Assembly: GCA_030447305.1 (NCBI GenBank)
Contig: JAUJPC010000005.1
Span: forward strand, 1 to 64,000
DNA from: Actinomycetota bacterium
GTDB taxonomy: Bacteria; Actinomycetota; CADDZG01; JAHWKV01
Length of the DNA: 64,000 nucleotides
Direction of reading: 5' to 3'
This document shows, one piece after another, positions 45,033-63,106 of the stretch; within the stretch, counting starts at the first letter, position 1; each line of letters opens with the position of its first letter. A program made the position numbers and the translations under genes. The notes under the pieces were generated by a model, which ran no database searches, was not told where the DNA came from, and saw only the letters and a program-made list of their open reading frames with translations.

Positions 45033-45089
45033 CATTAAACGGAAGGCATGGGGTAGTTGCCAGCCAACGTTACCGCACCTTGCTGTCTT

Positions 45090-45185: not shown

Positions 45186-45209
45186 GGGAGGGGTGCGTGA
45201 CCCCGAATT

Positions 45210-45656
45210 CTAGGACCGCCCGCTGAGTTCGCCGAACGGGTTAGTGACCTTCACGCCTTGATAGGTTTGGCCGTCGTTTAGATCCTCAGACCACAGGTTT
45301 GCACATCCCATCTGTGCAGCGCTCCGTACCACCATGGCGTCCCAGAAGCTGATCCGCAGATCGTCGTGGATGTCGATGGCACCTAGGACATCGGCAGCGC
45401 TCGGCTCATGCAGCGGCCAAGTGGCGAAATCAGAAACTAGCCTTCGGGCATCGGTGCGGCTGAGGCGGTTGGGAATCTTGGTGGTTACCGTTACGAAGAA
45501 CTCTTGCAGTATCTGTAGGCTCAGACAGCCACTGCGTGACTCGCCCAGTTCTCCGACAAGACGCATCGCGCTCTCTCGTCTGTCGCCGGCTGAGGTGTCG
45601 TAAGCATAGACGAGCACGTTGGTGTCGACGAAGCTGAGCGCTAGCTTATCGCTCAT
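45210..45656 (-). CDS. PIN-domain toxin (VapC-like)
   Basis: A 148-residue PIN-domain ribonuclease. It starts ALSFVDTNVLVYAYD (first acidic residue Asp), carries a mid Glu (LQEFFVTV) and ends with ISFWDAMVVRSAAQMGC and LWSEDLNDGQ, the remaining acidic residues. ATG 45656 is chosen; its first 11 bases overlap the antitoxin gene. Confidence 0.87.
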   Translation of the reverse strand: MSDKLALSFVDTNVLVYAYDTSAGDRRESAMRLVGELGESRSGCLSLQILQEFFVTVTTKIPNRLSRTDARRLVSDFATWPLHEPSAADVLGAIDIHDDLRISFWDAMVVRSAAQMGCANLWSEDLNDGQTYQGVKVTNPFGELSGRS

Positions 45657-45888
45657 GCAGTTCATCCCGGTTCCAGGCAACCTTGCCGCCGGTACCCATA
45701 TTGAAGCCGCTCTCCATGTCCTTTTTAGCCCGGGCCCAGGCTTCCGTGTAGGCGTCTTCCCCGCGAACCACATCCTCCAGCAGACCGGCCAGAAGGCCCG
45801 AGATGGAGGTGCCCCGGTGGACCGCCAGGATCTTGACCTTTCTCAGCAGCTCTTTCGATAGCGAGAGCGTGACGTTCTGTGTCTCCAT
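45646..45888 (-). CDS. Antitoxin partner of the PIN toxin
   Basis: An 80-residue protein: METQNVTLSLSKELLRKVKI followed by TSISGLLAGLLEDVV is a ribbon-helix-helix pattern, then an acidic-basic tail. The order and 11-base overlap with the PIN gene mark it as the antitoxin. The longer frame to 46068 includes remnant DNA from another gene and is rejected. Confidence 0.82.
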   Translation of the reverse strand: METQNVTLSLSKELLRKVKILAVHRGTSISGLLAGLLEDVVRGEDAYTEAWARAKKDMESGFNMGTGGKVAWNRDELHER

Positions 45889-45989
45889 GTCTGCCACGCT
45901 AACACATAGGTACGTGTGACACGTGAATGCGTGGAGCAGCGGACTGGTCGCCGGCTTCCTGACTGCTCTCGAACGGAGACCGCCGTCCA

Positions 45990-46340
45990 ACTGACGCAAA
46001 CCTTCCCGGGGACCTGGCAAGTCGTGCGCTGCGACCCGCAAACCGACAAGCGGAATTCGGGAGCCCATGAGGCAGAAGTTCAGGAGAATCGCATCCGACC
46101 ACCGTGCTCCCGCCAGGTGGAACCATTCGCCACATGCTAGGAATCCCGTCGCCGAGACGCTGATCTAGCCGAGCAGCCGAGAAGTACAATCCCGTCGATG
46201 GGGAGCGTCTTGTTCTTGACGTGGAACGGAGGGGGCAACCTGCCTCCGGGTTTCGGTGCGCTCAGGAACTTCGAAGCCGCGGTCACCACGTAGTCTTCGC
46301 CGGACAAGAGTTGCGTGATCCAGAGCCCCGTCCCGGTTTT
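45990..46340 (-). pseudogene. Decayed 3' end of the membrane glycosyltransferase gene
   Basis: Broken frames on the minus strand match the C-terminus of the intact glycosyltransferase at 52188-54404. LVGLRVAAHDLPGPREGL (45990s) resembles its FVGLRGAAHDLARPAKRL, and FLSAPKPGGR upstream resembles FARTPKVSGR. Order and orientation are the same. About 350 bases remain, with several indels. Confidence 0.6.
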
Positions 46341-46429
46341 CAAGAGAACGAGTCGCTGGAGTCCCGATGTCTCAGGCGGGATTTTCCGTTTACCTTGCTC
46401 GAGCGTTCGTCACAGATGTGGGAACAGTA

Positions 46430-47378
46430 ACCGCCCAACCCCGGCCGCGTCGTTACGGCGATGATGGCCTGCAAGGAGCATCTCCGCGAAACTAAGCAAC
46501 CTATTCAGTAGGCGCCGACCGATGTGGTGGTGGTCGATTGCCTTATGTTCGGCGCACTTGCCGCAGCGGAGCAGTTGGGGATACGGTGTGCGGTGCTTGT
46601 CCATAGTCCGCCCGACCTCATCATGGCTCCCGGCGGCGGCATGGAAGGCTTCCTGTTCGGACCGGTCAATGATTTGCGTACTGAGGCCGGCCTGCTCGGC
46701 GTCGGGCGGCTCTGGGACTGCTGGGCCCCCTTCACGCGGTGTGCACGACAATCACCGAGCTGGATCCGCTGGCCCCTCAGGTCCCTTCATCGTTCAAGTA
46801 CACAGGACCGGTCTTCGATGAGTTCTCCGGCGGACAATGGGTTTCGCCTTGGAGCTCCGACGATCCGAGGCCTCTCTGGTCCTGGTGAGCTTCGCAAGCA
46901 GCGCGGCCTGGAACCAGACCTCTAGGATTCAACGCACCCTCGACGGGCTCGCAGGAACCGATTATCGGGTCTTGGTGACGACCAGCCTGGCCGACGCCAC
47001 AAAGCTGGGGGTGCCGGAAAACGCGGTAGTGGTCGAGAGTGTGCCCCATCAGCAAGTTCTGCCCCATGCCTCTGCAATGGTCAATCACGCCGGACATGGC
47101 AGTGTGGCCATGCCTTTGTCGTACGGAGTCCCGGTGGTCTGTCTTCCGAACCCGGTAGCGGATCAACCGCCGATAGCGAAGCACGTCGAAAGACTTGGTG
47201 CCGGCCTTTCGCTGGACGGTGAGTCCGCAACCCCTGCCCAGATCCCCACGCCGTCGACTCGGTGGTAAATGACCAGTCTTTCACCGACGCAGCGCAGCTA
47301 ATAGGAAGCAAGATGCTAGCCGCCGGCGGTGCATCCGCTGCTGCATCAAGCCTCGAAGAGTTGTTTGGAGATTATTAG
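46430..47378 (+). pseudogene. UDP-glycosyltransferase (MGT/GT1-like), multiply frameshifted
   Basis: A glycosyltransferase of the macrolide/flavonoid GT1 type in three or more frames. Pieces in order: VVVVDCLMFGALAAAEQLGI (46517-), then CTTITELDPLAPQVPSSFKY in another frame, then LVSFASSAAWNQTSRIQRTL, the donor-site signature VNHAGHGSVAMPLSYGVPVV, and the tail SLEELFGDY with stop at 47378. Shifts fall near 46740, 46885 and 47250. The first half of the gene is missing or unrecognisable. Clearly not functional as read. Confidence 0.82.
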
Positions 47379-47441
47379 GCGACCATCTACCACCAGCCGG
47401 GCAGTGACGGACCGGTGAGCGTAAGGTTTATCGAGGCGCTG

Positions 47442-50070
47442 TCACATCGCTTTAGGCGCCGTACCCGAGAGCGCGAGGCGGACGATCTCTTCCAGGGGTG
47501 CAGCGCGGCCACGCGCCGAGTCCACCTCGTACCGCTCGCTCCCCAGCTCTTCAAGCGCGCGGCCTGCGACATCGGGAATTCCTATGAGCTCAAACGGTGG
47601 CGTTCCCCGAGCCGCTCCGCGAGCTGTTCCTCAGCGGCCTTTAGTACTGCGGCGCGCTCCGGGTCTCCCTCGAGCAAGGCGAGATCGGCCAATGCGACGA
47701 GGCCCAAGGTAAGTCCCATGTGGGAGCCGTTACGCTCGGACCGGACAACAACGTCGAGGTATCGCCGCCGGGCAGCGTTCAGATCACCCCTAAAGCGTGA
47801 ACAGAAGCCCCGCAGTCCGACGCCGATCAGGAGCATGTTCTCATCGCCGGCTCCCTGGTACAAAGCGATGCCCTCGTCAAGGAGCCTCTCAGCTTCTGCG
47901 AGGTTGCCCAGCCGCATCTCGGCGAGCGCCATCCCGAACAAACCCTCACCGATGTCCGGGTGGCCTCCCGACCGGCGGTACGCTTCAATGCTCTCCCGAA
48001 ACAACTCGATTGCCCCGGCCGGATCGGGCAGGATGGTCCCCCATCCGATTGAGCTCAGCTGCTGAGCGATACCCGCGTCGTCGCCAAGCTCTCGGTATAG
48101 CGCGAGGGCTTGCTCAGCCATCGGTGCGCTGGCACCGAAGTCGCCCTGAAATGTTGCCAGGCTGCCCCCGAGCCCAGAGCCGCGGCACGGGCGCCGAGGG
48201 ATTCAGCCGGAGTGGGAAGCGCGAGTAGCCGCTCGAGATGCCATCGCCCCTCCTTTACGTGGTTACGGAATAGCCAGAACCTGGATAGTGAGGAGGTGAG
48301 CCGCAGACCCTTCTCGACTTCCCGGGAGTCGATAGCCCAGCCGATGACCGCTCGGAAGTTATCCAGGTCCCGCTCCAGAATGTCGAACCATAGCTGTTGG
48401 TCCGCTCCGGGGGGGGGGCTTCCAGCCGGTGGCGCGGCGACTTCCAGGAAAAACTCCGCGTGGCGCCTGGCGAAGTTCAGACGCCTCACCTGAGGCTTCC
48501 AGCCGGTCCAGCGCGTATTGCCGGATGGTTTCCAGCATGGTCACGCGCAATGAATCTGAGGCCTCATCGCGCCGCAGGAGGCTCTTGTCATGTAGCGAGA
48601 GGACGATCTCCACCGCGTCAAGGCTCAGCTCGTCCGGCAGGCAAACCGCCTCGATCGCCTGGAGCGTGCAGCCCCCGGCAAACACCGACAGACGCCGGAA
48701 GACGAGCTGCTCTGCCTCAGGGAGCAACCGGTAGCTCCAGTCGATGGCGCCCCGCAGCGTCCGCTGGCGCTCATCGACGTCGCGGCCGCCGGCCAGGAAT
48801 GAAAGGCTTCGGTCGAGCCGGGACAGGAGCTCTCCGGGCTCAAACAGGCGGGCTCGGGCGGCCGCCAGCTCCAGGGCCAGCGGCAGGCCGTCTAGCCGCG
48901 CGCAGATTTCCGCCACGGCTGCTGCGATGTCCGGAGTGAGGTCGAAGCCGGGGCGGACCGAGCGCGCACGCTGAAGGAAGAGCGCCACCGAATCGACAGT
49001 CCGCAGCTCGTTGACCCGGTTCTCTGCCCGGCCGGCGTGGGGCAACTCCAGGGGCGGGACCGGAACCTCCTGCTCGCCGGCGATGCGAAGCGGCTCCCGG
49101 CTGGTGACGACGACCTTGAGGCCGGGCGCCGCCCGCAGGAGCTCCGCCACCGTTCGGGAGGCGTCGATGACCTGCTCGAAGTTGTCCAGGACGAGCAACG
49201 TGGTCCGGTCACGAAGCTCACTCTTGAGGGTTTCCAAAAGGGGCCTCTGACCCTCCTTTCCCATGCCTAGAGTCGAACCGATCACACTGGGAACCAGCTG
49301 GGGGTCGGTGATGGGCGCCAGTTCGACGAAGTAGACGCCGTCCGGGAAGCGATCGAGCACCACGGAAGCGACGGTCAGAGCAAGCCGGGTCTTTCCGGTC
49401 CCTCCAGGACCGGTCAACGTGACCAGGCGGGCGGAATCCAGGAGCTCTGTGATCTCGCCAAGCTCCCGTTGGCGCCCCACAACGAGGTCAGCGGAACGGG
49501 CAGGTTGGTGGGGACGTTCAAGGTCTTGAGCGGGGGGAAGTACTCAGGAAGACCCTCGATTACAAGCTGATGCATGTGTTTGGGCTCGTCGAAGTCCTTT
49601 AGCCGGTGGTCTCCCAGGTCTCGAAGCCTGACGCCGTCGGGGAGGTCTAGCTCCACCAGGGGCCGTGTGGAGTGCGATAGCAGCACCTGGCCCCCGTGAC
49701 CCGCGGCAGCGATGCGCGCTGCAAGGTGAACGTCCAAGCCGACGTACTCCTTGCCGTCCAGCCTGCCTTCACCGGTGTGCAGGCCCATGCGAACCCGGAC
49801 CGGAGACCCTTCCGGCCACGAGTGCTGCGCCAAGGACCTCTGAGCCGAAGCAGTGCAGGCCACCGCATCGACCGCGGAGGTAAAGACGGCGAAAAACGAG
49901 TCCCCTTCTGTGCTCACTTCGATCCCGTGGTGGGTCCGAATGGCCTCCCGCAGCAGGTTGTTGTGCTCGGCCAGAACCTGCGGCCACCGGGAGCCGAGGG
50001 CCCGAGCCAGGTTCGTGGACCCTTCGATGTCGGTGAACAGGAACGTGACCGTCCCGGTGGGTAGCGTCAC
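47442..50070 (-). pseudogene. Adenylate/guanylate cyclase-ATPase-TPR regulator, four frameshifts
   Basis: One gene in five frames. It starts MTLPTGTVTFLFTDIEGST, a class III nucleotide cyclase with GIEVSTEGDSFFAVF and VRVRMGLHTGE. The ATPase follows with GPGGTGKTR, TLLVLDNFEQV and GLPLALELAAAR, then TPR-like helices (AEQALALYRELGDDAG) and a tail ending SGTAPKAM at 47442. Frameshifts lie near 49485, 48490, 48150 and 47610. The cyclase part is whole and could still be made. A run of ten G at 48409-48418 lies inside the coding region. The ATPase and TPR modules resemble those of the HTH regulator at 40641. Confidence 0.83.
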
Positions 50071-50335
50071 GATCGCTCACTAAGCGTCACGGCGATGGGA
50101 ATATCCGGAGGAGCCTTGCTCTTAGTGGCCATGACGTCTCGCTCACCATTTGCTCGAGCCTGAAGGTTGCCAGATCCATAGTCCTGTAGTGTCGCTGTGT
50201 AATGGCAATCTGACCCAGCCAACGGACCGTCAGTGATCGGAACTCTGGTCGCTCAGCTGATTGTTCTCGCCCGTGAGGAGATCGGTGCATGGACACCAGG
50301 AAGCTAACCTCCTCCCTGATTATTCTCAGTACTTA

Positions 50336-51813
50336 ATGCGTAGAACGGACGCGATCGTAGTCGGTGCCGGCCACAATGGGGCTCGTCGCCTCCTGCTATC
50401 TCGCTCGCGCCGGGCTTTCGGTGCTCGTTCTGGAGCGCCGGCCGGTGGTCGGCGGGGCGGCCGTAACCGAGGAGTTGATGCCAGGCGTTAGCATCTCCGC
50501 CGCCTCGTACTCACTCTCTCTATTGCGCCCAGACGTTCACCGGGACCTCGAGCTGACCCGGCACGGGCTTGCGTTCACCCCGAAGGATCCGCAGATGTTC
50601 GTGCCGCTCCCGGACGGTCGGCACTTCTTCGTTTGGCGGGACGAGGCCCGGACCCAGGAGGAGCTGGCGCGGATTCATCGACCGGATGCCGAGGCCTATC
50701 CGCGCTGGGAGCGGTTCGGGAGGAGGCGGTGGCCCTGCTCCGGCCCTTCGCCGAGAGCCCGTCGCCTCCGCCGCCCCTTGAGGTGGAGCGGGAGCTGGCC
50801 CCGCGGCCGGTCGGAGGTGTCGCGCCTGGCGGTCGCAGGCAGCGCTGCTGAGTGCGTGGAGGAGTTCTTCGAGTCCGACGAGGTACGAGGCTGCTTTGCC
50901 ACCCAGGGGATCATCGGGACGCAGGCTGGTCCTCGGGAGCCGGGCACGGCCTGGGTGATGGCTTATCACGCAATGGGAGGAGAGCTGACGCGCCACCGGC
51001 ACCTGGGCGTGGGTGCGCGGCGGCATGGGAGCGCTCACCGCAGCGCTGGCATCCGCTGCATCCGAGGCTGGCGTTGAGATCCGCACCGACGCCGCAGTCG
51101 CGTCGGTGCTACGAGGACCGAAGAGTGGCAGGAGTGGTGACCTCCGGCGGCGCCGTCAAGCGCGCCGGCGTGGCCCTCTCCAACGCCGACCCGAAGCGGA
51201 CCTTTCTCGACCTCGACCCGGCGGACGCCCTGGAGCCGGAGTTCCGGCGCCACGTGGAGGAGTGGCGGGTCGACGGCGCGGTGGCCAAGGTCAACCTCGC
51301 CCTGGCCGAGCTGCCGGAGTTTCGGGCGCTGCCCGGAGGGCTCGGCCCCCAGCACCTGGCGACCACCGAGATCGCTCCCTCGATCAACTATCTCGAGGCT
51401 GCAGCAGCCGAGGCCGCGGACGGGCGGTTCTCCCCGGAGCCGTTCATGGAGGTGTTCGTGCAGTCGGCGTCGGACCCGACGCTTGCGCCGCCCGGGCCGC
51501 CACGTGGTCTCGGCGTTCACCCAGTACGCACCGGCGACCGGGTGGTCACCCGGTGACGCCCTGCATTCCGTGGTCGACACGCTGGCATGGTACGGCCCCA
51601 AACGTGCCGGACGCGGTGCTCGCTTCGCAGGTGCTCGGGCCTCTCGAGCTCGAGGAGCGCTTCGGGCTGACCGGGGGCGACATCTTCCACGGAGCGATGG
51701 TCCCCGAGCTGAGCTTCGGAGCCCGGTTCGCCTACCGGACGCCGGTGCCCGGCCTGTACCTCTGCGGGTCGGGGGCGAGCCCGGGCGGGGGCGTGATGGG
51801 AGCGCCGGGGCGC
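50336..51813 (+). pseudogene. CrtI/PYROXD2-like FAD oxidoreductase, copy A, broken
   Basis: A phytoene-desaturase-like flavoprotein. It begins MRRTDAIVVGAGHNG; an extra G near 50376 shifts the frame to LVASCYLARAGLSVLVLERR. Further shifts fall near 50720, 50800, 51000, 51110, 51495 and 51590. The last part (FGLTGGDIFHGAMVPELSFG) is in one frame. At 51813 homology to the family stops and the 3' end of an NmrA-like gene continues. Copy B is at 58604-60125. Confidence 0.85.
51182..51813 (+). repeat. 632-bp near-identical repeat, copy A
   Basis: The 3' part of the oxidoreductase pseudogene, almost base-for-base equal to 59451-60083. Only a few substitutions and one 1-bp indel (near 51611) were seen by eye. 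Same orientation. Confidence 0.9.
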
Positions 51814-52081
51814 CCTGAACGGCGATTTCCTGATTGGAGGGCCTCAGGCACTGTCCTGGCAAGACATCATCTCGACGTTCGAACGGGTCCATGGCGTGAA
51901 ACTCGAGATCCAGAACCAGGAAGCGGGTTCGCCGATGCCAGGGTTTCCCGACGCCATATCAGGATTCATGGCCGCCCTCGAAACCTACGATTCACCGAAG
52001 CCACTCTCGGCCGCCGAAGCCGCGAGTACCTTTGGCGTCCGGCTGACGACGCTCGAAGACTTCCTACGAGATACGGCATAA
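51814..52081 (+). pseudogene. 3' fragment of an NmrA-like gene, fused to oxidoreductase copy A
   Basis: In frame from LNGDFLIGGPQALSWQDIIS to the tail LTTLEDFLRDTA and stop at 52081. It matches the last 90 codons of the gene at 43553-44420 (DFLIGGPDALSWREIISAFE ... LTTLEGFLRQK), including the shared segment AALETYDSPKP. The rest of the gene is absent; the left edge is the abrupt end of the oxidoreductase sequence. Confidence 0.82.
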
Positions 52082-52187
52082 GGTGAATCGGCCTACCAGC
52101 GCTCAGCGACCGGCGTGTGGTTGTTGGTTGGCACCGCTCTTTAGGTCGGTGCCGGCCCACCGATGCTCTCCGAGTAACCGGTAACAT

Positions 52188-54404
52188 TCACCGCCACATG
52201 GATGCAAGCCTCTTGGCGGGTCTGGCAAGGTCGTGAGCTGCGCCGCGCAAACCGACAAAGCGGATGATTCCGTAGCCCATGAGGAAAACGTTCATGAGCC
52301 CGAAACTCGCATGCGACCACCGAGCTCCTGCCAGGTCGAATCCACTCGCCATTAGCCAGTAACCGAGGATGACCACCTGTGCCGATAGGTAGCGGGCCGG
52401 CACGCCCGTACGGCCCGAAACCTTGGGAGTTCGGGCGAAGGGCAGCTTCTTGTTCGTAACTGCCTGATGAATAGATCGAAAAACGCCGGCCAGGTTGACC
52501 GGTAATAGCGCCAGGTTCAGGGCGTACACCCTGATGACGTCGCTTTTTAGGTATCCCGAGTGGGTGAGGTCGCGAGCGTAGACGACGAAGTAGGGGAGCG
52601 CTGCTAAGGGCAGCCACGGACTTGCCAACTGCAGCTCCTTGGCAAAGGGGTAGCACAGCACGATCAGCAGTCCAAGGTTGGCGCTCGCGATCGACGTGAG
52701 GTAGTGAAATCGAACCATTCCCTCACGCAACTTCACGATGCTGATGGGCCGGGAAAACATGTGGCGCAGGAGCTTCGGGAGAATGATGAGCCCACCGTTT
52801 GCCCATCGGCCGCGCTGGATTATCAGGGAGCCAAAATCCGGAGGCGTGGCACTTACGGACAGGCGGTCGGGGTAGTTATGCAAGAGCCAGCCGGAGCGCA
52901 CTAAATCGATGCTCGACTCGGTGTCTTCGATCACCGTACGATCTTGAATGTAGCGGGTGACGGGAAACCCTCTCTCGAGCACTACTGTCCGTATGCCGTC
53001 CAGCGCTTTCTTGCGAAGCACCGCGTTGGCACCGACCCAAAAGGTTGCCGCATAGTGAGTGGACCCTTGATGGAGTATGTGCTGAATGTCCGTGGTGGCT
53101 CCGGCGATTCGCTCAACGGCGCTCGCGGCCCCGGGCACTGCGCAGTACGGCGTTTGGATAACCGCCACTGAATGGTTACAGGGGCGCTCCATCTCGAAGA
53201 TGAGCCGTAACGCATAATCGGGAGCCAGCAGACTGTCGGCGTCCAAAGTCAGCAGATAATCGGCGGACGGAACCACAAGGTCTGCATCGTCGGCCGTCGT
53301 CGGCTCCAGCCGCAGGCCGTCACTACTCTCCACCTCTCGAAACGATGACCCGAGCAGGCCGATGTAGCTGTTGAGGTTCATCGCCTTGTTCCGTTCATGA
53401 GACAGGTTCACGTACCGCTTACGCTCGAAGCTTGTGAACTCAACATCGAAAATGCCGGTGAGCCGGCGATATTCTGCGGTCAACTCGCACTCATCAAGCT
53501 CCAGGCGCTCCACCTCGCAGGCTCGTTGAATCGCCTGACGGCCCGGTGCGCGGAGAACATGCTCTACAAAAAACCTGTCCGTGTGATCGGAGACCCTGTA
53601 TCCATCTGCTTGTCTGAAGTACCAATGACCGATCCATCGCCAAAGGGAAGACAGTTCCTTCGCTTCTGCAGATGGGCAAAGCCGACCCCCCTCGGCCCTG
53701 GCAAGGAACTCGAGTTGCCTTAGCCGAATCCGGCGAGCCGGCATGGACATCAGGTTCGCCATCTCGGCGGGTAGCAGACGCATCTCGTCCAACGCCTCAC
53801 GGTCACCTTCGCTCTGGGCGGTGGGCGGATCATCGATGAGCAGCACTATTCGCTTCTTCCGGTACTGCTGTAGCCCGCTCGATAGCAAGGTCTGAGCAAC
53901 GACATGTAACTCTTCCTTGTAAGACGGCACCAGGATGGTCAGGCTGGGAGGATCCTCACGGGCCAAAAGGGCGGCAAGCTCGGAAGTAGATGCTTGAAGG
54001 TGAGCGCCCCGGCGGCGCAGGTATCCCAACCGGGTCAGTTGGTAAACGAAGTTACCGAAGAGTAGGAAGAACAGCACTCCGGTGAAAAGCGACAATTCCA
54101 CGGTACTCCGGAGGCGGTTCTCCTGAATTTGATCGCCTATTCCGATGATGCTGTCACCGACGAACAGCAGAGACCCAATGACGCTGATCGCCAGGAGGAC
54201 CCACGCCCACCGAATTTCGAGGGCCATCTTGGCGTTAGAGGACTCATCGGCACTGGTTCCGTGAAATCGGGTCATCGGTGGGACCGGCCCAGCGGAGAAA
54301 CCGACGTGGGGGGTGTCGATTGTCGGTTTGAGGTCGCAGGTGGAGAGACCTTGATCCTCTATTTGGACACTGCTCGATCGCCCTTGTCCCGCGCCTTTGT
54401 TCAT
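52188..54404 (-). CDS. Membrane family 2 glycosyltransferase (cellulose-synthase-like)
   Basis: A 738-residue processive-type glycosyltransferase. Two N-terminal helices (WVLLAISVIGSLLFVGD; LFTGVLFFLLFGNFVYQL), then the GT-A domain from SLTILVPSYKEELHVVAQTL, the DxD in LLTLDADSLLAPDY, the TED-like base in VIEDTESSIDLVRSG and the QxxRW motif QRGRWANGG, then four or five C-terminal helices. It should build or extend an exported glycan or glycolipid from UDP-sugars. Intact, in contrast with its surroundings. A decayed 3' copy lies at 45990-46340. Confidence 0.85.
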   Translation of the reverse strand: MNKGAGQGRSSSVQIEDQGLSTCDLKPTIDTPHVGFSAGPVPPMTRFHGTSADESSNAKMALEIRWAWVLLAISVIGSLLFVGDSIIGIGDQIQENRLRSTVELSLFTGVLFFLLFGNFVYQLTRLGYLRRRGAHLQASTSELAALLAREDPPSLTILVPSYKEELHVVAQTLLSSGLQQYRKKRIVLLIDDPPTAQSEGDREALDEMRLLPAEMANLMSMPARRIRLRQLEFLARAEGGRLCPSAEAKELSSLWRWIGHWYFRQADGYRVSDHTDRFFVEHVLRAPGRQAIQRACEVERLELDECELTAEYRRLTGIFDVEFTSFERKRYVNLSHERNKAMNLNSYIGLLGSSFREVESSDGLRLEPTTADDADLVVPSADYLLTLDADSLLAPDYALRLIFEMERPCNHSVAVIQTPYCAVPGAASAVERIAGATTDIQHILHQGSTHYAATFWVGANAVLRKKALDGIRTVVLERGFPVTRYIQDRTVIEDTESSIDLVRSGWLLHNYPDRLSVSATPPDFGSLIIQRGRWANGGLIILPKLLRHMFSRPISIVKLREGMVRFHYLTSIASANLGLLIVLCYPFAKELQLASPWLPLAALPYFVVYARDLTHSGYLKSDVIRVYALNLALLPVNLAGVFRSIHQAVTNKKLPFARTPKVSGRTGVPARYLSAQVVILGYWLMASGFDLAGARWSHASFGLMNVFLMGYGIIRFVGLRGAAHDLARPAKRLASMWR

Positions 54405-55189
54405 GACTTCCGCCCTTTGCTTTAGTCGGTTAGGAACGTTTAGGTCGTGGGTTTTCGGCCGCCCGCCGCGTCGCTTTATGGTCGGGCGAACTTCTGCCTT
54501 TTTTCAGTGCCCGCTCAATCTGTGGGACCGCGGGTCCACTCGCTTTGAAGATGAGTCATGGACCGCATCGATGCCAGATCCGCACCCTGTCTGCCGGGTG
54601 TGCATCGTGATTGATCCACTCTAACGCTCATCAGCCTTCGCATGTTGGGACGGAACTGTCGTCGTGAGAGGTCCGCACTTGATTCCCCTTTTGATCGATG
54701 GGAACAGTGTCGATCCTGGAGTTAAAGGGCGACTGAAGGTTGTGTTAATCGGAAATGAAACATGGCCGAGCAGGATGTGAATGGCCGGCCGGTCATCCTG
54801 CTATACCTGCGACCATGCGGGTTGGGCAACGCAGCCGTAGGTCCAGCACCGTCGCGCCGGGCGGTTACGGTGCCTTCGTTCATTTACTGCGGGGCTTCAC
54901 CCGTGATTGCTCCCATTCTTGCCGCGGCGCGGTTAGCGGGTCTCAGCTTTGTGGTTCACCGCGCCCTGTCGATGTTCGCTCCTCTGAACCTGCTGCTATG
55001 GAGAGGGTACCGGCGCTATGGGCGAGTCGCAGGCCTCGCGCTGGGGGCTCTGGGAACGCTGTCAATCTGGATCCACCTTTTCGAGCACAACTTCGACGAA
55101 ATATCCTGCCTCTCTCTGGGCAGGAACACGGTTCTGCTTGTAGCGGGGCGCACTGATGGACCGCAGAGCCGAAATCGCACGCCTTCCCG
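54405..55189. other. Stretch without a convincing gene
   Basis: Only weak frames. The plus-strand frame from 54762 includes one hydrophobic piece (SPVIAPILAAARLAGLSFVV) and a second (LALGALGTLSIWIHLF), perhaps the rest of a membrane domain belonging with the cyclase remnant that follows in the same frame. No start or family could be assigned. Confidence 0.5.
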
Positions 55190-55440
55190 GGAACTGACTC
55201 CGGAGGAAATCGAGCGCTACTGGAAAGCGGTGCTGAGCGGCACGCACCCCCGTTTGAGGAGGGCCGTCGCTTTTATCGTCTTCTCCCCAGGGAGCCGCGG
55301 TGCAAGCTGTGCAACGCCCCGTTTAGCCGGACCCGGGGCTTGGATCGGAAAGCTTGTCGGGAAGGGCCCGTCTGAAAGGAACCCCAATCATCCCGAACTG
55401 GAAGCTGCAGCCCACACTTTTTCGGAGGAGTGGTACAGCA
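55190..55440 (+). pseudogene. Remnant of a class III cyclase with Cys-rich N-terminal domain
   Basis: LTPEEIERYWKAVLSGTHPR begins in one frame; a shift gives RGRRFYRLLPREPRCKLCNA and APFS, a further shift returns to GKLVGKGPSERNPNH. The CKLC motif and this order are typical of the domain that precedes the catalytic part of some actinobacterial adenylate cyclases. No catalytic domain follows; the frame dissolves before 55500. Confidence 0.55.
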
Positions 55441-55531
55441 AGGATCCGCGTCCTCCGACAAGCACTTACCGGCACCGGCTTCTACGTGATGCCTGCCACC
55501 CGGGCGAGAACTTAGCAACCCTTGTAACGCG

Positions 55532-55566
55532 GCTCCGCCCCCGGGGCTGTGGGCCGGGGGCGGAGC
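55532..55566. terminator. Strong GC hairpin at the 3' end of the SRPBCC gene
   Basis: An 11-bp GC-rich inverted repeat (GCTCCGCCCCC / GGGGGCGGAGC) lies 10 bases beyond the stop of the minus-strand SRPBCC gene. No clear T-run on either side, so termination is an inference. Confidence 0.45.
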
Positions 55567-55575
55567 GAGCAAAGG

Positions 55576-56067
55576 TTAGCCCAGGGTGACGGCGTACTCC
55601 TCGAGACGGTCATAGGTCTCTGCGGCGCCCTCAGCCATTCCGGAGGCCGCCATAGCATCACGGCTTTCGAACGACGGGGCGACCGAGGTGACTCTGATGG
55701 TCGTCTTGCCGTCCTCCTCGGAGAAGACCACCGTCTCGACTGCCGCTTGCTCGTTGAACGGCGGGACGTCGTATATGAACGTCCAGGTTATGCGCTCGGG
55801 AGCTTGAATCTCCCGGAACTCGCCCTTGAAGGGCTGCTGGTTGCCCTCCGAATCCTGGAGCACATAGCGCCAGGTGCCGCCTTCGACGAAGTGCATCTCG
55901 CAGCTCACGAAGGAAGTCCTCCTAGGGCCCCACCACTGCCTTATGTGCTCGCAGCTGGTGTGAGCCTTGAAGACGAGCTCACGGGGCGCATTGAAAGTTC
56001 GGGTCATGATGATCTCGGGGCGGTCCTGCGGGATTTCCATCTCCAGCTTTCCGACGGTTGTGGTCAT
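55576..56067 (-). CDS. SRPBCC/AHSA1-domain protein
   Basis: A 163-residue protein of the Aha1/START-like (CalC) fold: IMTRTFNAPRELVFKAHT, HIRQWWGPR, FSEEDGKTTIRVTS and the C-terminal helix DRLEEYAVTLG. The fold binds hydrophobic ligands. Its ATG overlaps the stop of the upstream ArsR-type gene (four bases), a common gene pair in which the regulator controls the SRPBCC protein. Confidence 0.9.
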   Translation of the reverse strand: MTTTVGKLEMEIPQDRPEIIMTRTFNAPRELVFKAHTSCEHIRQWWGPRRTSFVSCEMHFVEGGTWRYVLQDSEGNQQPFKGEFREIQAPERITWTFIYDVPPFNEQAAVETVVFSEEDGKTTIRVTSVAPSFESRDAMAASGMAEGAAETYDRLEEYAVTLG

Positions 56068-56423
56068 TCTTCGACTCCCTCTTGACGACTTCTACTTTTG
56101 AGATCCTCCAAGTACTCATCCAGACGTTCGTAGCTCTCTTCCCAAAACCGCTTGTACTCGCCGATCCAGTCCGCCACCTTCTTCAGTGGCTCGGGGTCGA
56201 GCCGGCAATAGCGCCACTGCGCCTCCCGGCTTTTTGTGATGAGACCAGCTCCCTCCAGCACCTTCAGGTGTTTCGAGACTGCCGGAAGACTCATCTGAAA
56301 GGGCTCTGCCAGCTCCGTCACCCCTGCTTCCCCCTGGGCCAGCCGGGCAAGGATCGCTCGGCGGGTTGGATCGGCAAGTGCCCCAAAGGCTCGGTCGAGA
56401 AAATCCGCTTCTGTTCTGGTCAT
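56064..56423 (-). CDS. ArsR-family winged-helix repressor
   Basis: A 119-residue regulator: AFGALADPTRRAILARLAQGE, recognition helix MSLPAVSKHLKVLEGAGLI, wing REAQWRYCRLD. No cysteine cluster for metal in the recognition helix, so it is of the non-metal type usually paired with SRPBCC proteins. It is the first gene of the pair; a compound palindrome lies 17 bases upstream. Confidence 0.92.
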   Translation of the reverse strand: MTRTEADFLDRAFGALADPTRRAILARLAQGEAGVTELAEPFQMSLPAVSKHLKVLEGAGLITKSREAQWRYCRLDPEPLKKVADWIGEYKRFWEESYERLDEYLEDLKSRSRQEGVEE

Positions 56424-56440
56424 GCCTCCTGCTTGCCCTA

Positions 56441-56460
56441 AACCGTACGGTTAATTAACC
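56441..56460. promoter_or_regulatory. Overlapping palindromes, likely ArsR operator
   Basis: Two 12-bp perfect palindromes overlap by four bases: AACCGTACGGTT (56441-56452) and GGTTAATTAACC (56449-56460). Together they stand just before the ArsR-type gene, the usual place of its own operator. Confidence 0.65.
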
Positions 56461-56516
56461 GCATAGTAAAGTCCCGGAGGGTAAGTTGTCAACCAACAGG
56501 TTAAATCAGGGCAAAA

Positions 56517-57660
56517 CCTAGGATGTCCTATCTCCGAGACCTAGCGACACTGTCTCAAATCCACGACTCAACTTAGGAGGCGACGCATCCTTCTGTTTGA
56601 CCACCACGTCGAGCAGAAAGGAGACGTCGCCTTGACTCAAGATGATGCCCTGTTCCGGTTCAGAGTACGAGTCTTTGGACTAGCTCACGAGATGGGCAAT
56701 GTAAGAGCCGCCTGCCGGGCAATGGGATCCATCCCTCGACCTACTACCGCTGGAAGGGCCAGGTCGAGCGTTTCGGCATCGAGATCTTGGCCCCCGGGAG
56801 CGCCGGCGGCCCCGGATGCCCAACGCCACCTCACCGATGATTGAGCAGCGGGTGATCGCGTTCGCCCTGGCGTTTCCCACCGTGGGTCCGCAACGCATCA
56901 GCGACGAGCTGGCCCGGCGCAAATGGGGATCGATCAAGATCTCGCCCAACGGGGTCCACAAGGTCTTAAGGCGCCATGGGCTAAACACCAAGGCGAAGCG
57001 GCTGGGGATGGTGGCCGGCTACGCCGCCCCCTACGAGCCGATCGAGAGCCGCCAGCCCCCGCCTGAGCGCCACATCGAGGTCGACCACCCGGGTGAGCTG
57101 GTCCAGATGGACTGCTTTTGCATCGGTCGGCTCTCGGGTGCCAAGGGCACGGCATGGCAGTACACCGCGATCGACGTCGCCTCCAGCTTCTGCTGGGCCG
57201 AGACCATCTCAGTCCGAAAAACGCCCAGGGCCGGTTCACCTCCGCTTTTGGCTAGCCGGGTGGCCGAGGATCTGTCCAACCGGGGGTGGAGGCTGGAGGC
57301 GGTGTGCACCGACAACGGTTCAGAGTTCCGCTCGGCCGAGTTCGACAAGGAAATCGCCCGGCTCAAGGCCCGCCACATCTTCATTCGCGCCGGAAGGCCC
57401 CAGTCCAACGGGTGTGTCGAGCGGGTTCAGCAAACCATCCTCGAGGAGTGCTGGAAGCCAACCTTCGCCCGCTACCTGATTCCCAAGTACACCGGCCTGC
57501 GCCACGACCTTGACCGGTACCTGCACCTTTACAACACAGACCGCCCACACCACGGCAGACTGACCCAGGGACGGATCCCCGAGGACATTATCGGTAAGGT
57601 GAAGATGTGGGCCCGCTAGCAAGGATGCGTCGCCACAACTCAGAGACAGGACAACCTAGG
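56517..57660 (+). mobile_element. IS481-like insertion sequence with uneven ends
   Basis: The transposase is bounded by inverted repeats. The inner 14 bases GGCGACGCATCCTT (56579-56592) recur as reverse complement at 57621-57634. The outer 18 bases beginning CCTAGG match at 16 of 18 positions between 56517 and 57660. On the left, about 35 more bases separate the inner and outer parts than on the right, so the left end carries an insertion or a duplicated end. No clear target duplication seen. Confidence 0.65.
56632..57619 (+). pseudogene. IS481-like transposase, two frameshifts
   Basis: The N-terminal part (FGLAHEMGNVRAACRAMG) is followed after a shift near 56727 by IHPSTYYRWKGQVERFGIE, and after a second near 56797 by PRERRRPRMPNATSPMIEQ in the frame that runs to 57619. 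The catalytic core is whole: VQMDCFCIG (first Asp), VCTDNGSEF (second Asp) and GCVERVQQTILEE (Glu). As read it cannot make full transposase. Confidence 0.83.
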
Positions 57661-57858
57661 AGTTCAACCAGTTGATCCGACAAGACGAGTTCTCAACAAC
57701 TGGGCCGGTTGAGCAACAGACGAATGATTTTGTGGACTGTAATCCGGGGAAGAGATCTCAGGGGTGGCTGCAAACCCGGCCCACGTAGGAACTTCGAAGC
57801 TCCCTAAAGAAGCTGATATTGCCGGGTGAAGTTCCGCCGGTCAAGAAAGGAAAACTAA

Positions 57859-58296
57859 ATGTCTGACGACGCCGGCACGAACTCCGGGTCTATCCCGGAC
57901 CCCATTCCCGAGGTCCGCGACGAGGGCCCCGGCGGCACCGATTTGAGCTCAGGTTCCAACACCGCCGGTGTCGAGGGCACTGAAGGTTCCGGCGAGCCAG
58001 GGTCCCTCCCCGACCCCGTCCGCCATGGAAGCACCGAGGGTCCGGTTCCAGAGACCGACCGAACAGTCTGCCTTCTCGGCCTGACCTCTTTGCTCCCGTG
58101 GTGCGGACATCGCACCCGGCGGAGTCCAACCCGGCGGCGAACGCTTGCTAAAGGCCGAGGTAACGGATACGGCCCGAGTCGAGGTATCACTCAGATCGGG
58201 TCGCCCACAATGGCAGGTTCCTTGGCTCAGACAACCGATCTTGCCACCGGCGAATTGCGGGCCAGGTGGTCGGTAACGTACTTGGCGTCTCGCTAG
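57859..58296 (+). CDS. Hypothetical protein with Gly/Ser/Pro-rich acidic start
   Basis: Up to 145 residues. GAAAGGAAAA precedes ATG 57859. The first 68 residues are acidic and rich in Gly, Ser, Pro and Thr (IPDPIPEVRDEGPGG) and look disordered; the rest is basic and unlike the start, so a frameshift near 58065 is possible. No family recognised. Low trust in the second half. Confidence 0.35.
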   Translation: MSDDAGTNSGSIPDPIPEVRDEGPGGTDLSSGSNTAGVEGTEGSGEPGSLPDPVRHGSTEGPVPETDRTVCLLGLTSLLPWCGHRTRRSPTRRRTLAKGRGNGYGPSRGITQIGSPTMAGSLAQTTDLATGELRARWSVTYLASR

Positions 58297-58613
58297 TGCC
58301 CGAGAATGGTCTCGGAGGCGAGTGAGTACTGGAAGTGGAGGCCGACGAAGTACAGTCCCGGTTGGGATGTGATGACGCCCCGGTCGTGGATCGGCTGCTG
58401 AGGTTCCCTCGCCTCCTCTAGCTCTCGCCGGATGGCGGCCGCTGCGGCATCGAGCTTGCCCTGCGCCATCCTGAGCAGTGCCAGGCCCCGATGGGGTGAA
58501 TGCCCAGTTCGGCGGTCGCCGAGTTCTTCATTGCGGCGTTCCGGAGCGGGTGCATGGATCCTGCTCACGGGCTCAGCTTCCACTTGACTATTCTCCGTAG
58601 TCGATGCGTACAA
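58293..58613 (-). pseudogene. Chimeric remnant: TPR-regulator piece joined to a flavin monooxygenase tail
   Basis: One frame that joins two unrelated scraps. GLALLRMAQGKLDAAAAAIR and the residues after it read like a TPR piece of a LuxR-type regulator; ITSQPGLYFVGLHFQYSLAS reads like the C-terminus of a flavin-containing monooxygenase. Neither has its proper surroundings. Taken as joined gene remains, not a gene. Confidence 0.5.
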
Positions 58614-60125
58614 CCGACGTGATCGTGATCGGCGCCGGACATAACGGGCTCGTCGCTGCCTGCTATATCGCTCGCGCCGGGCTGTCGGTGCTCGTCCTGG
58701 AGCGCCGCCCGGTGGTGGGAGGGGCCGCCGTCACGGAGGAGCTGATGCCGGGCGTTCGAGTCTCCGCTGCCTCGTACTCACTGTCGCTGCTGCGACCCGA
58801 CGTCTACCGGGACCTCGAACTTGCCCGGCACGGCCTCGCGTTCACCCCGAAAGATCCGCAAATGTTCGTGCCACTTCCGGACGAGCGGCACTTCTTCGTG
58901 TGGCGGGACGAGACCCGCACCCAAGATGAGCTGGCGCGGATCCACCGTCCCGATGCCGAGGCCTACAGGCGGTGGGGACGGTTCTGGGATGAGGCGGTGT
59001 CGCTGCTCCGGCCCTTCGCCGAGAGCCCGTCGCCTCCGCCGCCCCTTGAGGTGGAGCGGAGCTGGGGCGCGGCCGCTCCGACGTGTGGCGCCTCGCGGTC
59101 GCGGGCAGCGCCGCCGAGTCTGTGGAGGCGTTCTTCGAGTCGGATGAGGTGCGAGGCTTCTTCGCGACCCAGGGAATCATCGGTACGCGGGCGGGGCCGC
59201 GGGAGCCAGGCACGGCCTGGGTGATGGCGTATCCGCGCTCGGAGGAGAGTTGAACGGCGCCACCGGCACCTGGGCGTGGGTGCGCGGGGGCATGGGAGCG
59301 CTGACCGCGGCATTAGCTTCCGCTGCATCCGAGGCCGGGGTCGAGATCCGCACCGACGTAGCCGTCGTGTCGATGCTCGTCGAGGAGGGGAGAGCGGTGG
59401 GAGTGATCACCTCCGAGGGCGCCGTGGAGCGCGCCGGTGTGGTTCTGTCCAACGCCGACCCGAAGCGGACCTTTCTCGACCTCGTCCCGGCGGACGCCCT
59501 GGAGCCGGAGTTCCGGCGCCACGTGGAGGAGTGGCGGGTCGACGGCGCGGTGGCCAAGGTCAACCTCGCCCTGGCCGAGCTGCCGGAGTTTCGGGCGCTG
59601 CCCGGAGGGCTCGGCCCCCAGCACCTGGCGACCACCGAGATCGCTCCCTCGATCAACTATCTCGAGGCTGCAGCAGCCGAGGCCGCGGACGGGCGGTTCT
59701 CCCCGGAGCCGTTCATGGAGGTGTTCGTGCAGTCGGCGTCGGACCCGACGCTTGCGCCGCCCGGGCCGCCACGTGGTCTCGGCGTTCACCCAGTACGCAC
59801 CGGCGACCGGGTGGTCACCCGGTGACGCCCTGCATTCCGTGGTCGACACGCTGGCATGGTACGGCCCCAAACGTGCCGGACGGCGGTGCTCGCTTCGCAG
59901 GTGCTCGGGCCTCTCGAGCTCGAGGAGCGCTTCGGGCTGACCGGGGGCGACATCTTCCACGGAGCGATGGTCCCCGAGCTGAGCTTCGGAGCCCGGTTCG
60001 CCTACCGGACGCCGGTGCCCGGCCTGTACCTCTGCGGGTCGGGTGCGAGCCCGGGCGGGGGCGTGATGGGAGCGGCGGGGCGCAACGCCGCCGCGACGGT
60101 CCTGGCCGATCTCGGGCGTCAGTAA
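58604..60125 (+). pseudogene. CrtI/PYROXD2-like FAD oxidoreductase, copy B, broken
   Basis: It begins MRTTDVIVIGAGHNGLVAAC with the FAD-binding glycine motif intact and reads cleanly for about 155 residues, further than copy A. Shifts follow near 59065, 59230 and 59760 and 59880; the end (GVMGAAGRNAAATVLADLG) shows the usual second FAD-contact region and a proper stop at 60125. The last 630 bases equal copy A almost exactly, and the shift at the CGCCCGGGCCGCCACG stretch is present in both. Confidence 0.85.
59451..60083 (+). repeat. 632-bp near-identical repeat, copy B
   Basis: Same orientation as copy A at 51182-51813, offset 8269-8270 bases. The identity ends where copy A jumps to the NmrA fragment, while copy B runs on to the natural gene end. 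Confidence 0.9.
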
Positions 60126-60221
60126 CGACAGCTGTGGCTTGATTTTCAGCTCACACCTCCCGGCGCGGGCAACGCGCAAGGAAAAACATCCAGCCTTACT
60201 TCGTTTGGCCGGTGTTCAGAT

Positions 60222-60246
60222 GACGGGAATCGAACCCGCCCACCGG
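60222..60246 (-). repeat. Duplicated T-arm segment of selC
   Basis: 25 bases identical to 60317-60341, the T-arm and variable-arm side of the tRNA-Sec gene, 95 bases beyond it on its 3' side. Such part copies of tRNA 3' ends are common scars of site-specific integration, but the acceptor stem is not part of this copy. Confidence 0.7.
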
Positions 60247-60308
60247 GCCGGGTACACGGCGGGCGGGTGAGATCGGCACCGGGCTTGGCGGGTCCGGCGA
60301 AGCGTCAG

Positions 60309-60400
60309 CGGAGACGGACGGGAATCGAACCCGCCCACCGGCTCATCACCGGTGCACTGGTTTTGAAGACCAGGAGAGCCACCAGGCCCCATTCGCCTCC
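60309..60400 (-). tRNA. selC: Selenocysteine tRNA (anticodon TCA)
   Basis: A 92-base minus-strand gene: acceptor GGAGGCG/CGTCTCC (one G-T pair), long D-stem beginning GGGGC, anticodon stem CTGGT/ACCAG with loop CTTCAAA (anticodon UCA), a long variable arm with perfect 6-bp stem CACCGG/CCGGTG, and T-arm GCGGG TTCGATT CCCGT. The long variable arm with UCA anticodon is diagnostic. selA, selB and selD are not in the window. Confidence 0.95.
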
Positions 60401-60548: not shown

Positions 60549-61817
60549 ATGTCCGTATCGCCTACCGTTCTGGTCGCTTGTGACGACCCAATCCTTCTCG
60601 ATGAGGTCATTCGCCATCTCGAGGAGACTCCGCACTGGAGGCTGGTGGCGTCGGCCCGCTCGGCCGGGGAGCTCCTGCATTCCGTGAAGCAACCTGACTG
60701 CGTGCTGGTCTCCGCTTCTCTGGCCATCGAGCTCGCCGAACATCCTCGAGCGGCTCACCTAACCACAGAGATTGTGGCATTCGGCAGGCAGGAAACCACC
60801 ACGGCACTAAGGGCGGCTCTCAAGCTGGGCGCCCGGGGTTTCGTGCAGTGGCCACAGCAGCGGGAGCAGCTTCGAGCGTTGGTCGAACGGGAAGTCGTTC
60901 TTCCGGCACCAAGCGCCACTCCGTCCGGGGATCTGCACGCCGTCTGGGCACCCAAGGGCGGCGCTGGGGCCACGGTGATCGCGGCGCATCTGGCGGGCGC
61001 ATTCGCCCGCCTGGGAGGGCGCACGATTCTGGTCGACCTGGATCTGGACCACGCGGATCAGACCTGCGTGCTCGGGGCGGAGTCGGACACCAAGACGGTC
61101 GGAGACTTGCTGCGAGTGGCCGACGAGCTTTCGGTCGCTACCGTTCAGAGTGTTTTCTGGTCGCACCCGCTTGGATTCAACGCCGTCTTGGCACCGGGCC
61201 ATGGCACCCATGTCCCAGAAGCCAGCGAAGTGCGAAGACTGCTGCACACCATACGGGGAATGGCCGACCACGTGATTGTGGATCTCGCTTCGGGAGCCAA
61301 TCCGGTTGCGGTCGCGGCGATGGAGGATGCCAGCTCGGTCCAGGTTGTCCTGACTCCGGACCTGTTGAGCTTGAGGCGAGCGAGGGACTCGCTGAAGGCT
61401 TTGAGAGCTGCGGGCCTGCAGACCCAAGGAATGAACGTGGTTCTCAACCAGGCCGGCGCGTCCGACATAACTGCCAAGGAGGTGGACGCCGTCCTGGGAA
61501 TCAAGGAGGTCACCCGCATAAGGGCCGATCTTCAAATCTACCGTCTGGTGAACCGAGGCCAGTTGAGTCCTTTGGCTTGCAAGCTGCTGAGTCCGCTGGC
61601 AAGGCGATTGACCGACGAGGCCGCGCGTCATCGGTTCCGCCCCGTCCAGAAGGAGGAGCAACGTCTCCCGCAGACCATGAGGCCGATCCCGAACCACAAG
61701 GCCCCCTGGGGGATATCAGCGCCGAGGGGCAACGTTGCCGCTGTGCCCAGGCCGGTCCGGGATCCGGCTCGGGCGGAGCTCCGAAGAAACGGGCCGGCTC
61801 TCAGGGGCAGGACTTAG
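60549..61817 (+). CDS. CpaE-like pilus assembly ATPase
   Basis: A 422-residue protein: an N-terminal receiver-like domain (VLVACDDPILLDEVIRHLEE) and a MinD/ParA-type ATPase starting near residue 133 with the deviant Walker A WAPKGGAGATVIAAHLA, then TILVDLDLDHADQ and VIVDLASGANP. CpaE proteins place the Tad/Flp pilus machine. The C-terminal 60 residues are basic and Pro-rich, probably disordered. It is followed by cpaF after 26 bases, so it heads the operon. Confidence 0.87.
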   Translation: MSVSPTVLVACDDPILLDEVIRHLEETPHWRLVASARSAGELLHSVKQPDCVLVSASLAIELAEHPRAAHLTTEIVAFGRQETTTALRAALKLGARGFVQWPQQREQLRALVEREVVLPAPSATPSGDLHAVWAPKGGAGATVIAAHLAGAFARLGGRTILVDLDLDHADQTCVLGAESDTKTVGDLLRVADELSVATVQSVFWSHPLGFNAVLAPGHGTHVPEASEVRRLLHTIRGMADHVIVDLASGANPVAVAAMEDASSVQVVLTPDLLSLRRARDSLKALRAAGLQTQGMNVVLNQAGASDITAKEVDAVLGIKEVTRIRADLQIYRLVNRGQLSPLACKLLSPLARRLTDEAARHRFRPVQKEEQRLPQTMRPIPNHKAPWGISAPRGNVAAVPRPVRDPARAELRRNGPALRGRT

Positions 61818-61843
61818 GTCTCGACTCGTCTAACGGGGGTTAG

Positions 61844-63106
61844 GTGTCAGAGCTGAACGGTAGCAACGTCGAACTCAAAGACCGGATCCGCCAGCGCCTG
61901 CTGGACAAGCGGGATCCGGCCCTCTTCGAGGGCAACCAGGCGGATAAGCGTCTCAACCTTCGAGAGGCCGTCCGGCGAGTGCTGGAGGAGGACCGAGTCA
62001 TCATTCCCGGGTCCGAGATGGCCCGCCTGGTGCGGGAGATCTCGGACGAGGTGGTGGGGTTGGGACCACTCGAGGAGCTGCTGCGCGACCCGCGAATCAC
62101 CGAGGTGATGATCAACGCACCGGACAACATCTATGTTGAGATGGGCGGCAGAATTCAGCGGGCATGGGTGAGCCTGGATTCCGAGGCTCAGGTCCTTCAT
62201 CTCATCGAGAGGGTGATCGGCCCGCTCGGTCTCCGGATCGATGAGTCCCAGCCGTACGTGGAAGCCCGGCTACCGGACGGCAGCCGGCTACACGCAATCA
62301 TCCCTCCGCTCTCGATCCACGGTCCGGCCGTGACCATCCGGCGGTTCTCCGCCCTACCGTTCACCTACGACAGCCTGGCGGCCAACGAGACAGTCACCGA
62401 GCCGATGGTTCGGTTTCTCGACGCGGCGGTCCGGGCCAGGATGAACATCATCATCTCCGGCGGCACCGGGAGTGGGAAGACCACCCTGCTCAACGTTCTT
62501 TCTTCGTCGATCCCCGAGCACGAGCGGCTGATCACCATCGAGGACGCGGCGGAGCTGCGGCTGGCCCGTGAGCACGTCGTCTCACTGGAGGCTCGTCCGG
62601 CCAACATAGAGGGCCGCGGACTGGTCACCGTACGGGATCTCCTGCGCAATGCGCTGAGGATGCGGCCGGACCGGATCATCGTCGGCGAGGTCCGGGGTGG
62701 CGAGGCACTGGACATGCTTCAGGCGATGAACACCGGCCACGAGGGCTCGCTCTCCACCTGTCACGCCAACTCGCCCGCAGACCTGCTGGTCCGGCTCGAG
62801 ACAATGGTGATGATGGCAGAGTTGGGGCTGGCGCCGGGTCCGGTGCGCCAGCAGATCGCGGCGGCTCTCGACCTGATCGTGCACACCAGCCGGCTCCAGG
62901 ACAGCTCGCGCAAAGTCGTGCGGATCACCGAAGTCCGAGGATTGTCCGACCGGGGACTGGAGCTGGTTGATGTCTTCCGCTTTCGTGCTGCCGGACTGGA
63001 CGATGAGGGCCGGGTCGTCGGCCGCTGTGAGGTGGGGAATCCCCCTGCCTGCCTTGATCGAATCGCCGCTGCCGGCGTTGTCGACCTGGTGTGGGGGAAC
63101 AGTTGA
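61844..63106 (+). CDS. CpaF/TadA type IV pilus/secretion ATPase
   Basis: A 420-residue hexameric ATPase for Tad/Flp pilus or secretion. The N-terminal part has [19 protein letters not shown], Walker [14 protein letters not shown] near residue 206, the Asp box [11 protein letters not shown], Walker B-type [18 protein letters not shown] and the His box STCHANS. Length is normal. Start GTG 61844 with an upstream GGGGG site. Its stop overlaps the next gene's ATG. Confidence 0.94.

Follow-up and report, generated by a model that had tools for sequence, protein, structure and literature searches.

The window analysed here is a 64,000-nt stretch of an Actinomycetota contig. It contains a selenocysteine tRNA gene (selC), and the features around this gene are listed in Table 1. 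Rfam and ARAGORN both call the clear selenocysteine tRNA that the sequence-only reading had described, and it is the sole tRNA-Sec match in this genome at E ≤ 1e-11. Twenty-five bases of selC recur exactly on its 3′ side; the starts of the two copies are 95 bp apart and 70 bp lie in between. The recurring stretch had been described as a T-arm copy. Its exactness and its position on the 3′ side were confirmed, but the repeat covers the T-arm and the last part of the extra arm and leaves out the acceptor strand: it extends 12 nt upstream of the T-loop and ends 7 nt short of the selC 3′ end.

A two-T-arm pattern, which was written from this locus, gave one match in the window and none in 100 shuffles. 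A profile of the 19 selC genes of the class was run over the window and the following 20 kb; it found the T-arm copy at E = 0.00046 and the runner-up at E = 0.066, and there was no other selC remnant with an E below that value. A search of the whole genome with the 271-base selC region gave no second match at E ≤ 0.001. A degenerate second tRNA gene was rejected because ARAGORN and Rfam find selC alone there, and selC was the only RNA that Rfam reported between 38000 and 61000 (E ≤ 1). No tyrosine integrase was matched on the 240-kb contig, in agreement with the earlier statement that no integrase gene is left; all 13 matches were on other contigs.

Table 1. Features of the selC locus, in window coordinates
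Feature	Position	Strand	Basis
Accessory interval, of other length in G003	39500..60306	.	Same-genus DNA comparison
Decayed flavin oxidoreductase adjoining selC	58585..60083	+	Pieces in several frames
Repeat unit with fold-back arm, core, GC hairpin and T-arm copy	60215..60301	-	Models R1 (E 2.0e-11) and R2 (E 6.3e-11), this 87-base unit being among the input sequences of both
T-arm copy, CCGGTGGGCGGGTTCGATTCCCGTC, right arm of the unit, acceptor strand absent	60222..60246	-	Exact match
Inverted T-arm ATCTCACCCGCC, 2-nt mismatch opposite TC of the T-loop	60262..60273	-	Alignment
Conserved core GCCAAGCCCGGTGCC	60275..60289	-	Alignment A3, core pattern
Left outer arm; in some relatives complementary to the selC acceptor, here weakly so	60290..60299	-	Alignment A3, 4/7 outer pairs
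selC, selenocysteine tRNA gene	60310..60400	-	Rfam RF01852, 77.1 bits; ARAGORN 60308-60400
The 25 selC bases (end of extra arm and T-arm) that recur downstream	60317..60341	-	Exact match
First two genes of a Tad-like operon (CpaE-like ATPase, TadA-like ATPase)	60549..63106	+	NCBIfam, synteny

Neighbours of selC and selC loci in the class

The CpaE-like ATPase gene lies at 60549 and the TadA-like ATPase gene at 61844; for these genes the best NCBIfam models score below their curated cut-offs. The left neighbour, the flavin oxidoreductase gene, looks decayed as read from its frames, and assembly errors could contribute to this appearance. A second decayed copy of it, at 50317-51813 and 8.3 kb apart, is 90% identical to the copy beside selC. 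The accessory region also holds two NB-ARC/STAND-type ATPase genes (40641-42965 and 48359-49480), the first of which has an HTH domain as well as a TPR match.

The genus comprises the window's genome (G000), G001, G002 and G003. No selC was found in G001 at E ≤ 1e-11, and the same-genus comparison by DNA covered three selC loci, one in G002 and two in G003 (contigs C101 and C108). The Tad side was collinear in all three, with 72-73% identity. G003 C101 has 1.4 kb between selC and the block ending at 39.5 kb in the window, G003 C108 has 10.8 kb and the window itself 20.8 kb; the G002 contig ends before the conserved block and gives no distance. A collinear Tad side together with a variable distance 3′ of selC supports selC as the edge of a variable region. 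In G003 C108 an open oxidoreductase frame of 473 codons, related to the broken gene of the window, ends right at selC. The three loci carry no second T-arm copy, and the repeat unit that includes this copy at G000 selC is absent from them; the flank there is too diverged to define a precise empty site.

The sequence-only reading had made selC the boundary between decayed accessory DNA and the Tad operon, had taken the T-arm copy as the mark of an element that once entered, and had proposed the selC locus of relatives as a check. In the relatives the Tad side was indeed constant and the 3′ side variable, so that selC remains the edge of a variable region with Tad-like genes on its right, but the T-arm copy bounds no accessory DNA and is missing from all three same-genus loci. 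Its role as a mark of entry was not upheld, as the two copies enclose only 70 bp and the downstream one is part of a separate family of repeats of about 87 bp. An island of accessory DNA bounded by two T-arms was rejected, since no second remnant reaches an E below 0.066. The unit is located between selC and the accessory region, and it did not bring the latter in.

At E ≤ 0.001 the tRNA-Sec search was unspecific, with matches in 100 of 100 genomes and 73 above the cut-off; therefore E ≤ 1e-11 was used in the class. At this threshold selC was found in 16 of the 24 class genomes, with 19 genes in all. Two selC genes on different contigs were seen in G003 (identical to each other), G006 and G016; these may reflect true duplication, transfer or strain mixture, and for the identical pair of G003, mixed strains in a metagenome assembly may be the cause. 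Contigs end 2 bases behind selC in G010 and 10 bases behind it in G012, and further arrays may be hidden there. A displaced 3′ part of selC lies 4.5 kb downstream of the gene in G020, in the same orientation; it starts at the anticodon arm and matches exactly over 51 nt. G022 has a diverged 3′ part 1.9 kb downstream. The G020 locus (L066) has selC at 10186-10275, the 3′ part near 5659 and open frames in between. A third selC half was found in G018 C101 (L132), and the DNA upstream of it resembles by eye that of G020. By eye, the similar DNA upstream of the displaced halves of these two genera (L132; L066 near 5720) reads GAAAGTCCTGGTCAG ... TACGCACCGGTCTTC, and it probably marks the end of an island present in both. 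Behind G021 selC, at a distance of about 135 bp, is a tyrosine integrase broken across two frames. These halves and the integrase look like ordinary islands with a crossover at the anticodon arm, and selC is an integration hotspot in the class.

A repeat unit behind selC and ssrA genes

The repeat unit is ordered as left outer arm, core, inverted T-arm, GC hairpin and copy of the local T-arm and acceptor. The family is about 87-105 bp long, and the ten units compared were 83-98 nt. The left outer arm tends to complement the acceptor strand or tail of the local gene. The core is close to GCC-AT-GCCCGGTGCC, and the inverted T-arm, mostly ATCTCACC, pairs with the T-loop region save for two bases; neither the G008 ssrA unit nor the G016 selC unit has this mismatch. 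Where a gene is adjacent, the right arm repeats its 3′ tail, exactly over 25 nt in the window, over 23-32 nt in five other units and over 14 nt in G016. It reaches the gene 3′ end in G008 selC, G008 ssrA, G016, G021 and G015, and stops 7 nt before it in the window and 1 nt before it in G020. The selC gene of G008 has the variant GATCCCC and its T-arm copy carries the same variant, as would be expected if the copy were the displaced tail of the local gene.

A module downstream of selC is common to G000, G008, G020 and G016, with two in tandem in G016; G023 selC is followed by the first half of the module and G021 selC by a short remnant. A selC-module pattern gave six matches in the 24 class genomes, five of them behind selC (G000, G016 twice, G020 and G023), and the sixth, in G013, lies by eye in coding DNA and was taken as chance. 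R1, a covariance model built from selC units only, gave four matches outside its input, with E of 1.2e-4 to 0.0055 per genome. One is behind the tmRNA gene of G015 and one behind the selC 3′ half of G018 C101. Another belongs to an array in G018 C123, the first 54 nt of which score as a tmRNA 3′ end (27.4 bits, under the Rfam cut-off of 47), and the last is in G011, with no tRNA called nearby.

Two patterns written from known units speak to specificity and give no independent finds: the core pattern, in which the T-arm copy is ignored, had seven matches in the 24 class genomes, which are its seven source units, that of the window among them, and the core plus T-arm pattern matched six of 396 phylum genomes, all of them known class units. 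Their reversed controls gave no match. A looser core pattern, with two matches in its reversed control, gave 16: four known units, three new ones (G013 C42, G016 C29 and G010 C74) and nine that are coding by eye.

R2, a covariance model built from ten units, gave 16 matches in nine of the 24 class genomes at E ≤ 0.05. Four are behind selC, one is behind a selC half and four are in ssrA settings (G015, G008 and G018 twice); around the remaining seven no tRNA or tmRNA was called within 700 bp. The weak matches (E 0.0046-0.043) comprise four of these seven and one in G018. The window's genome has one copy, and no genome of the 24 has more than four. At E ≤ 0.001, R2 gave 11 matches in nine of the 396 phylum genomes, all nine within the class of 24; ten of the matches are its own input and the other, in G008 C7 (E 7.3e-6), is in an array behind the tmRNA gene. 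A spread of the family over the phylum was rejected, as the searches of the 396 genomes, a sample drawn from a larger group, matched 4, 6 and 9 of them, all in the class. Two records were returned by a scan of GTDB contigs, and a scan of viral contigs gave no match. Nothing supported a phage or plasmid origin of the unit: the only match was one of 41 nt with 85% identity (E 0.007) in a Nocardia phage, and a second search for such a source gave no match. These searches give good support for a gene-less unit family that sits at the 3′ ends of selC and ssrA within a single Actinomycetota class. It looks undescribed so far; a literature search, mostly of titles and the starts of abstracts, found no description of a gene-less selC/ssrA unit family.

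Pairing of the arms was evaluated in A3, an alignment of ten units that includes G018_selCx, which has lost its right arm and was dropped from the arm comparison. A3 leaves out the second unit of G016 and that of G010, the units of G016 C29, G023, G021 and G008 ssrA, and the second G018 core; an alignment with the G008 ssrA unit, A4, misplaces the inverted arm and was excluded from the counts. In A3 81.0% of the cells were paired versus 72.8% after shuffling, and the covariation score was 0.219 versus 0.108; neither value was reached in 500 shuffles, and with partners slid the covariation scores were 0.041 to 0.086. The A3 structure was drawn up after the sequences had been seen and both arms resemble the local gene, so that the pairing would show complementarity to the target and not necessarily an RNA. 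RNAalifold gave a weak fold for A3 that has the same outer stem, with 8 of 12 pairs changed on both sides and an energy of only -7.6 kcal/mol; for the selC-only set A2, one of 15 pairs was changed on both sides and there was a covariation penalty. Single-strand folding energies were ordinary (nine units, z -2.1 to +0.3). Over nine rows, three of which are units with no adjacent gene whose target labels we set ourselves, the outer arms formed 5.2 of 7 pairs when matched to their own partner, against 4.9 when matched to other units of the same target and 3.5 in cross-target matches; the own-partner sum was reached by 98 of 20000 permutations. The outer arm of the G008 selC unit (3/7 pairs) is weaker than that of the window (4/7). 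By eye, the inverted T-arm of the G008 ssrA unit, GTCGAACC, is the exact complement of the T-loop stretch of this genome, GGTTCGAC, and therefore the arm follows the local gene there.

Origin of the second T-arm

The tandem array behind the tmRNA gene of G008 (C7, L140:1279-1658) repeats the tmRNA 3′ end four times, at spacings of 92, 92 and 104. In two of its units the tail is followed by TCAGATCCC or TCAGATTCC; the core unit begins differently, and behind its own tail copy TCAGATTCC stands again. These may be read as a filled and an empty junction side by side. The relatives are mostly fragmented metagenome assemblies in which repeats and arrays may be misjoined; as assembled, the G008 junctions are the pattern that an insertion at the gene tail would leave, the displaced copy being about 21 bases long.

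The selC and ssrA units of G008 share the core within one genome while their arms differ. When the cores of selC and ssrA units were compared in four chosen cross-target pairs, 7, 0, 0 and 0 of 1000 shuffles reached the score. Ten comparisons of the core with selC and tmRNA showed no clear derivation, the best being reached by 22 of 300 shuffles.

We propose, with a probability of about 0.5, that the second T-arm forms the right arm of a mini-element without genes, which recombined site-specifically at the T-loop of selC or ssrA. At the window locus the unit was probably inserted at the tail of selC and is not the scar of the decayed region beside it. The mini-element would be non-autonomous, and a recombinase supplied in trans would bring about its entry. 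Its insertion would restore the gene and displace a copy of the gene tail, as islands do at the T-loop sublocation. Several points weigh against this proposal. No recombinase lies beside the window copy, this copy has no acceptor strand, and its identity over 12 nt upstream of the T-loop is unexplained by a T-loop crossover alone. In the genome assemblies compared, neither an excised form nor mobility of the unit was seen. In G016 C29 a CcrB-like large serine recombinase (L131:843-2441) lies about 1.5 kb from a weak ssrA-type unit; its best NCBIfam match is CcrB with 130.9 bits, far below the cut-off of 900. By eye it is also near a decayed ssrA-like tail. This single case is an anecdote and no proof.

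Local duplication, in which the tails of selC and ssrA were duplicated and folded back by slippage or template switching with no element involved, is possible though unlikely. Both arms look derived from the local gene, and two 92-nt units of the G008 ssrA array repeat the tmRNA tail together with downstream sequence; for these two, which may be plain tandem duplications, such an event suffices. The core is what opposes it. Common to selC-type and ssrA-type units, it is not clearly derived from either gene, and in G008 a pair of units at different genes has the same core and different arms. Independent local events would not be expected to produce the same core and are therefore disfavoured. 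We consider it improbable that the unit is a 3′ trailer or structured RNA of the two genes, co-transcribed with them and kept by selection; such an RNA would account for arms that covary across targets. A terminator scan of the selC strand from 60000 to 60620 of the window found no terminator-like site, and by eye a hairpin followed by five T stands behind the unit near 60180-60215, both of which would suit a trailer. However, Rfam finds no RNA besides selC around the locus, terminator-like hairpins stand by eye before the unit in G008 selC and in the G018 array, and the three other selC loci of the genus do without the unit.

Least probable, and in our view very unlikely, is that a larger island brought the accessory DNA, then decayed and left the T-arm copy as its attachment scar. 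It is true that selC serves as an integration site in relatives, as seen from the partial copies 4.5 and 1.9 kb away and from the split integrase behind G021 selC. Those partial copies, however, start at the anticodon arm and not at the T-arm. Only 70 bp lie between the copies here, and the similar lengths of the ten units are unlike the outcome of independent deletions. Neither the window nor the next 20 kb has another selC remnant with an E below 0.066, and in G003 C108, where the oxidoreductase gene ends directly at selC, no T-arm copy is found.

The mini-element itself might act in another form, to which we give little credence: the unit could be an attachment site folded from a single strand, in which the inverted arm and the T-arm copy mimic the duplex T-arm of selC or ssrA. 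The mostly fixed mismatch, TC opposite TC, would then lie in the T-loop, where the crossover would occur. A hairpin of single-stranded DNA would recombine with the tRNA gene, like an attC or CTX site, and would build gene-less arrays. If true, tRNA genes would be the targets of an integron-like way of inserting DNA.

Meaning and relation to known systems

Duplicated tRNA tails are routinely taken as island ends; here such a tail belongs to a gene-less repeat of about 90 bp, and island callers and tRNA annotators could be misled by repeats of this kind. Should the units be mobile, they would represent site-specific insertions of very small size at tRNA genes. Their fold-back arms, which fit the local target, raise the question of how an insertion would acquire complementarity to its target.

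REP and other palindromic intergenic repeats are short, gene-less and palindromic, and the unit resembles them in these properties and in its intergenic position. REP elements occur in many dispersed copies, whereas the unit has one match in its own genome and at most four in any of the 24, and nine of its 16 matches are at selC or ssrA gene ends or fragments thereof.

The attC sites of integrons and the attP of phage CTX contain imperfect inverted repeats, and folding of one strand gives a duplex recombination site. The attC boxes are RYYYAAC and GTTRRRY. In the hairpin of the unit, as read from the alignment of units, ATCTCAC and GTTCGAT each differ from them by one base; the T-loop sequence GTTCGAT misfits the GTTRRRY box at the fourth base. 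The imperfect inverted repeats of the unit, with their fixed mismatches, could fold from one strand in a way comparable to attC, in so far as the consulted part of PMC3053210 describes it, and to CTX attP. Unlike an integron attC, the unit has no cassette gene.

Williams reportedly classed the islands in tRNA and tmRNA genes by sublocations in 2002. With such islands, as they appear in the part of the Islander report consulted (PMC4383910), the unit shares a restored gene and a displaced 3′ fragment in direct orientation. It differs from them in having neither an integrase nor a payload between the two copies, which are 70 bp apart in the window. In the ssrA-specific islands of Dehalococcoides, according to the portion of PMC3146451 consulted, integrations follow ssrA in tandem, and a 20-bp repeat of the 3′ end of the gene bounds them; some are described there without an integration module, and the integrase is a serine recombinase that was compared with CcrB. 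The unit is like these islands, as far as that portion describes them (PMC3146451), in forming tandem units behind ssrA with a copy of the 3′ end. The Dehalococcoides islands bear genes in the same account, whereas the unit is gene-less, about 90 bp long, has a fold-back arm and also uses selC (PMC3146451). The unit is set apart by the combination of having no gene, a fold-back arm that fits its target, and the use of both selC and ssrA.
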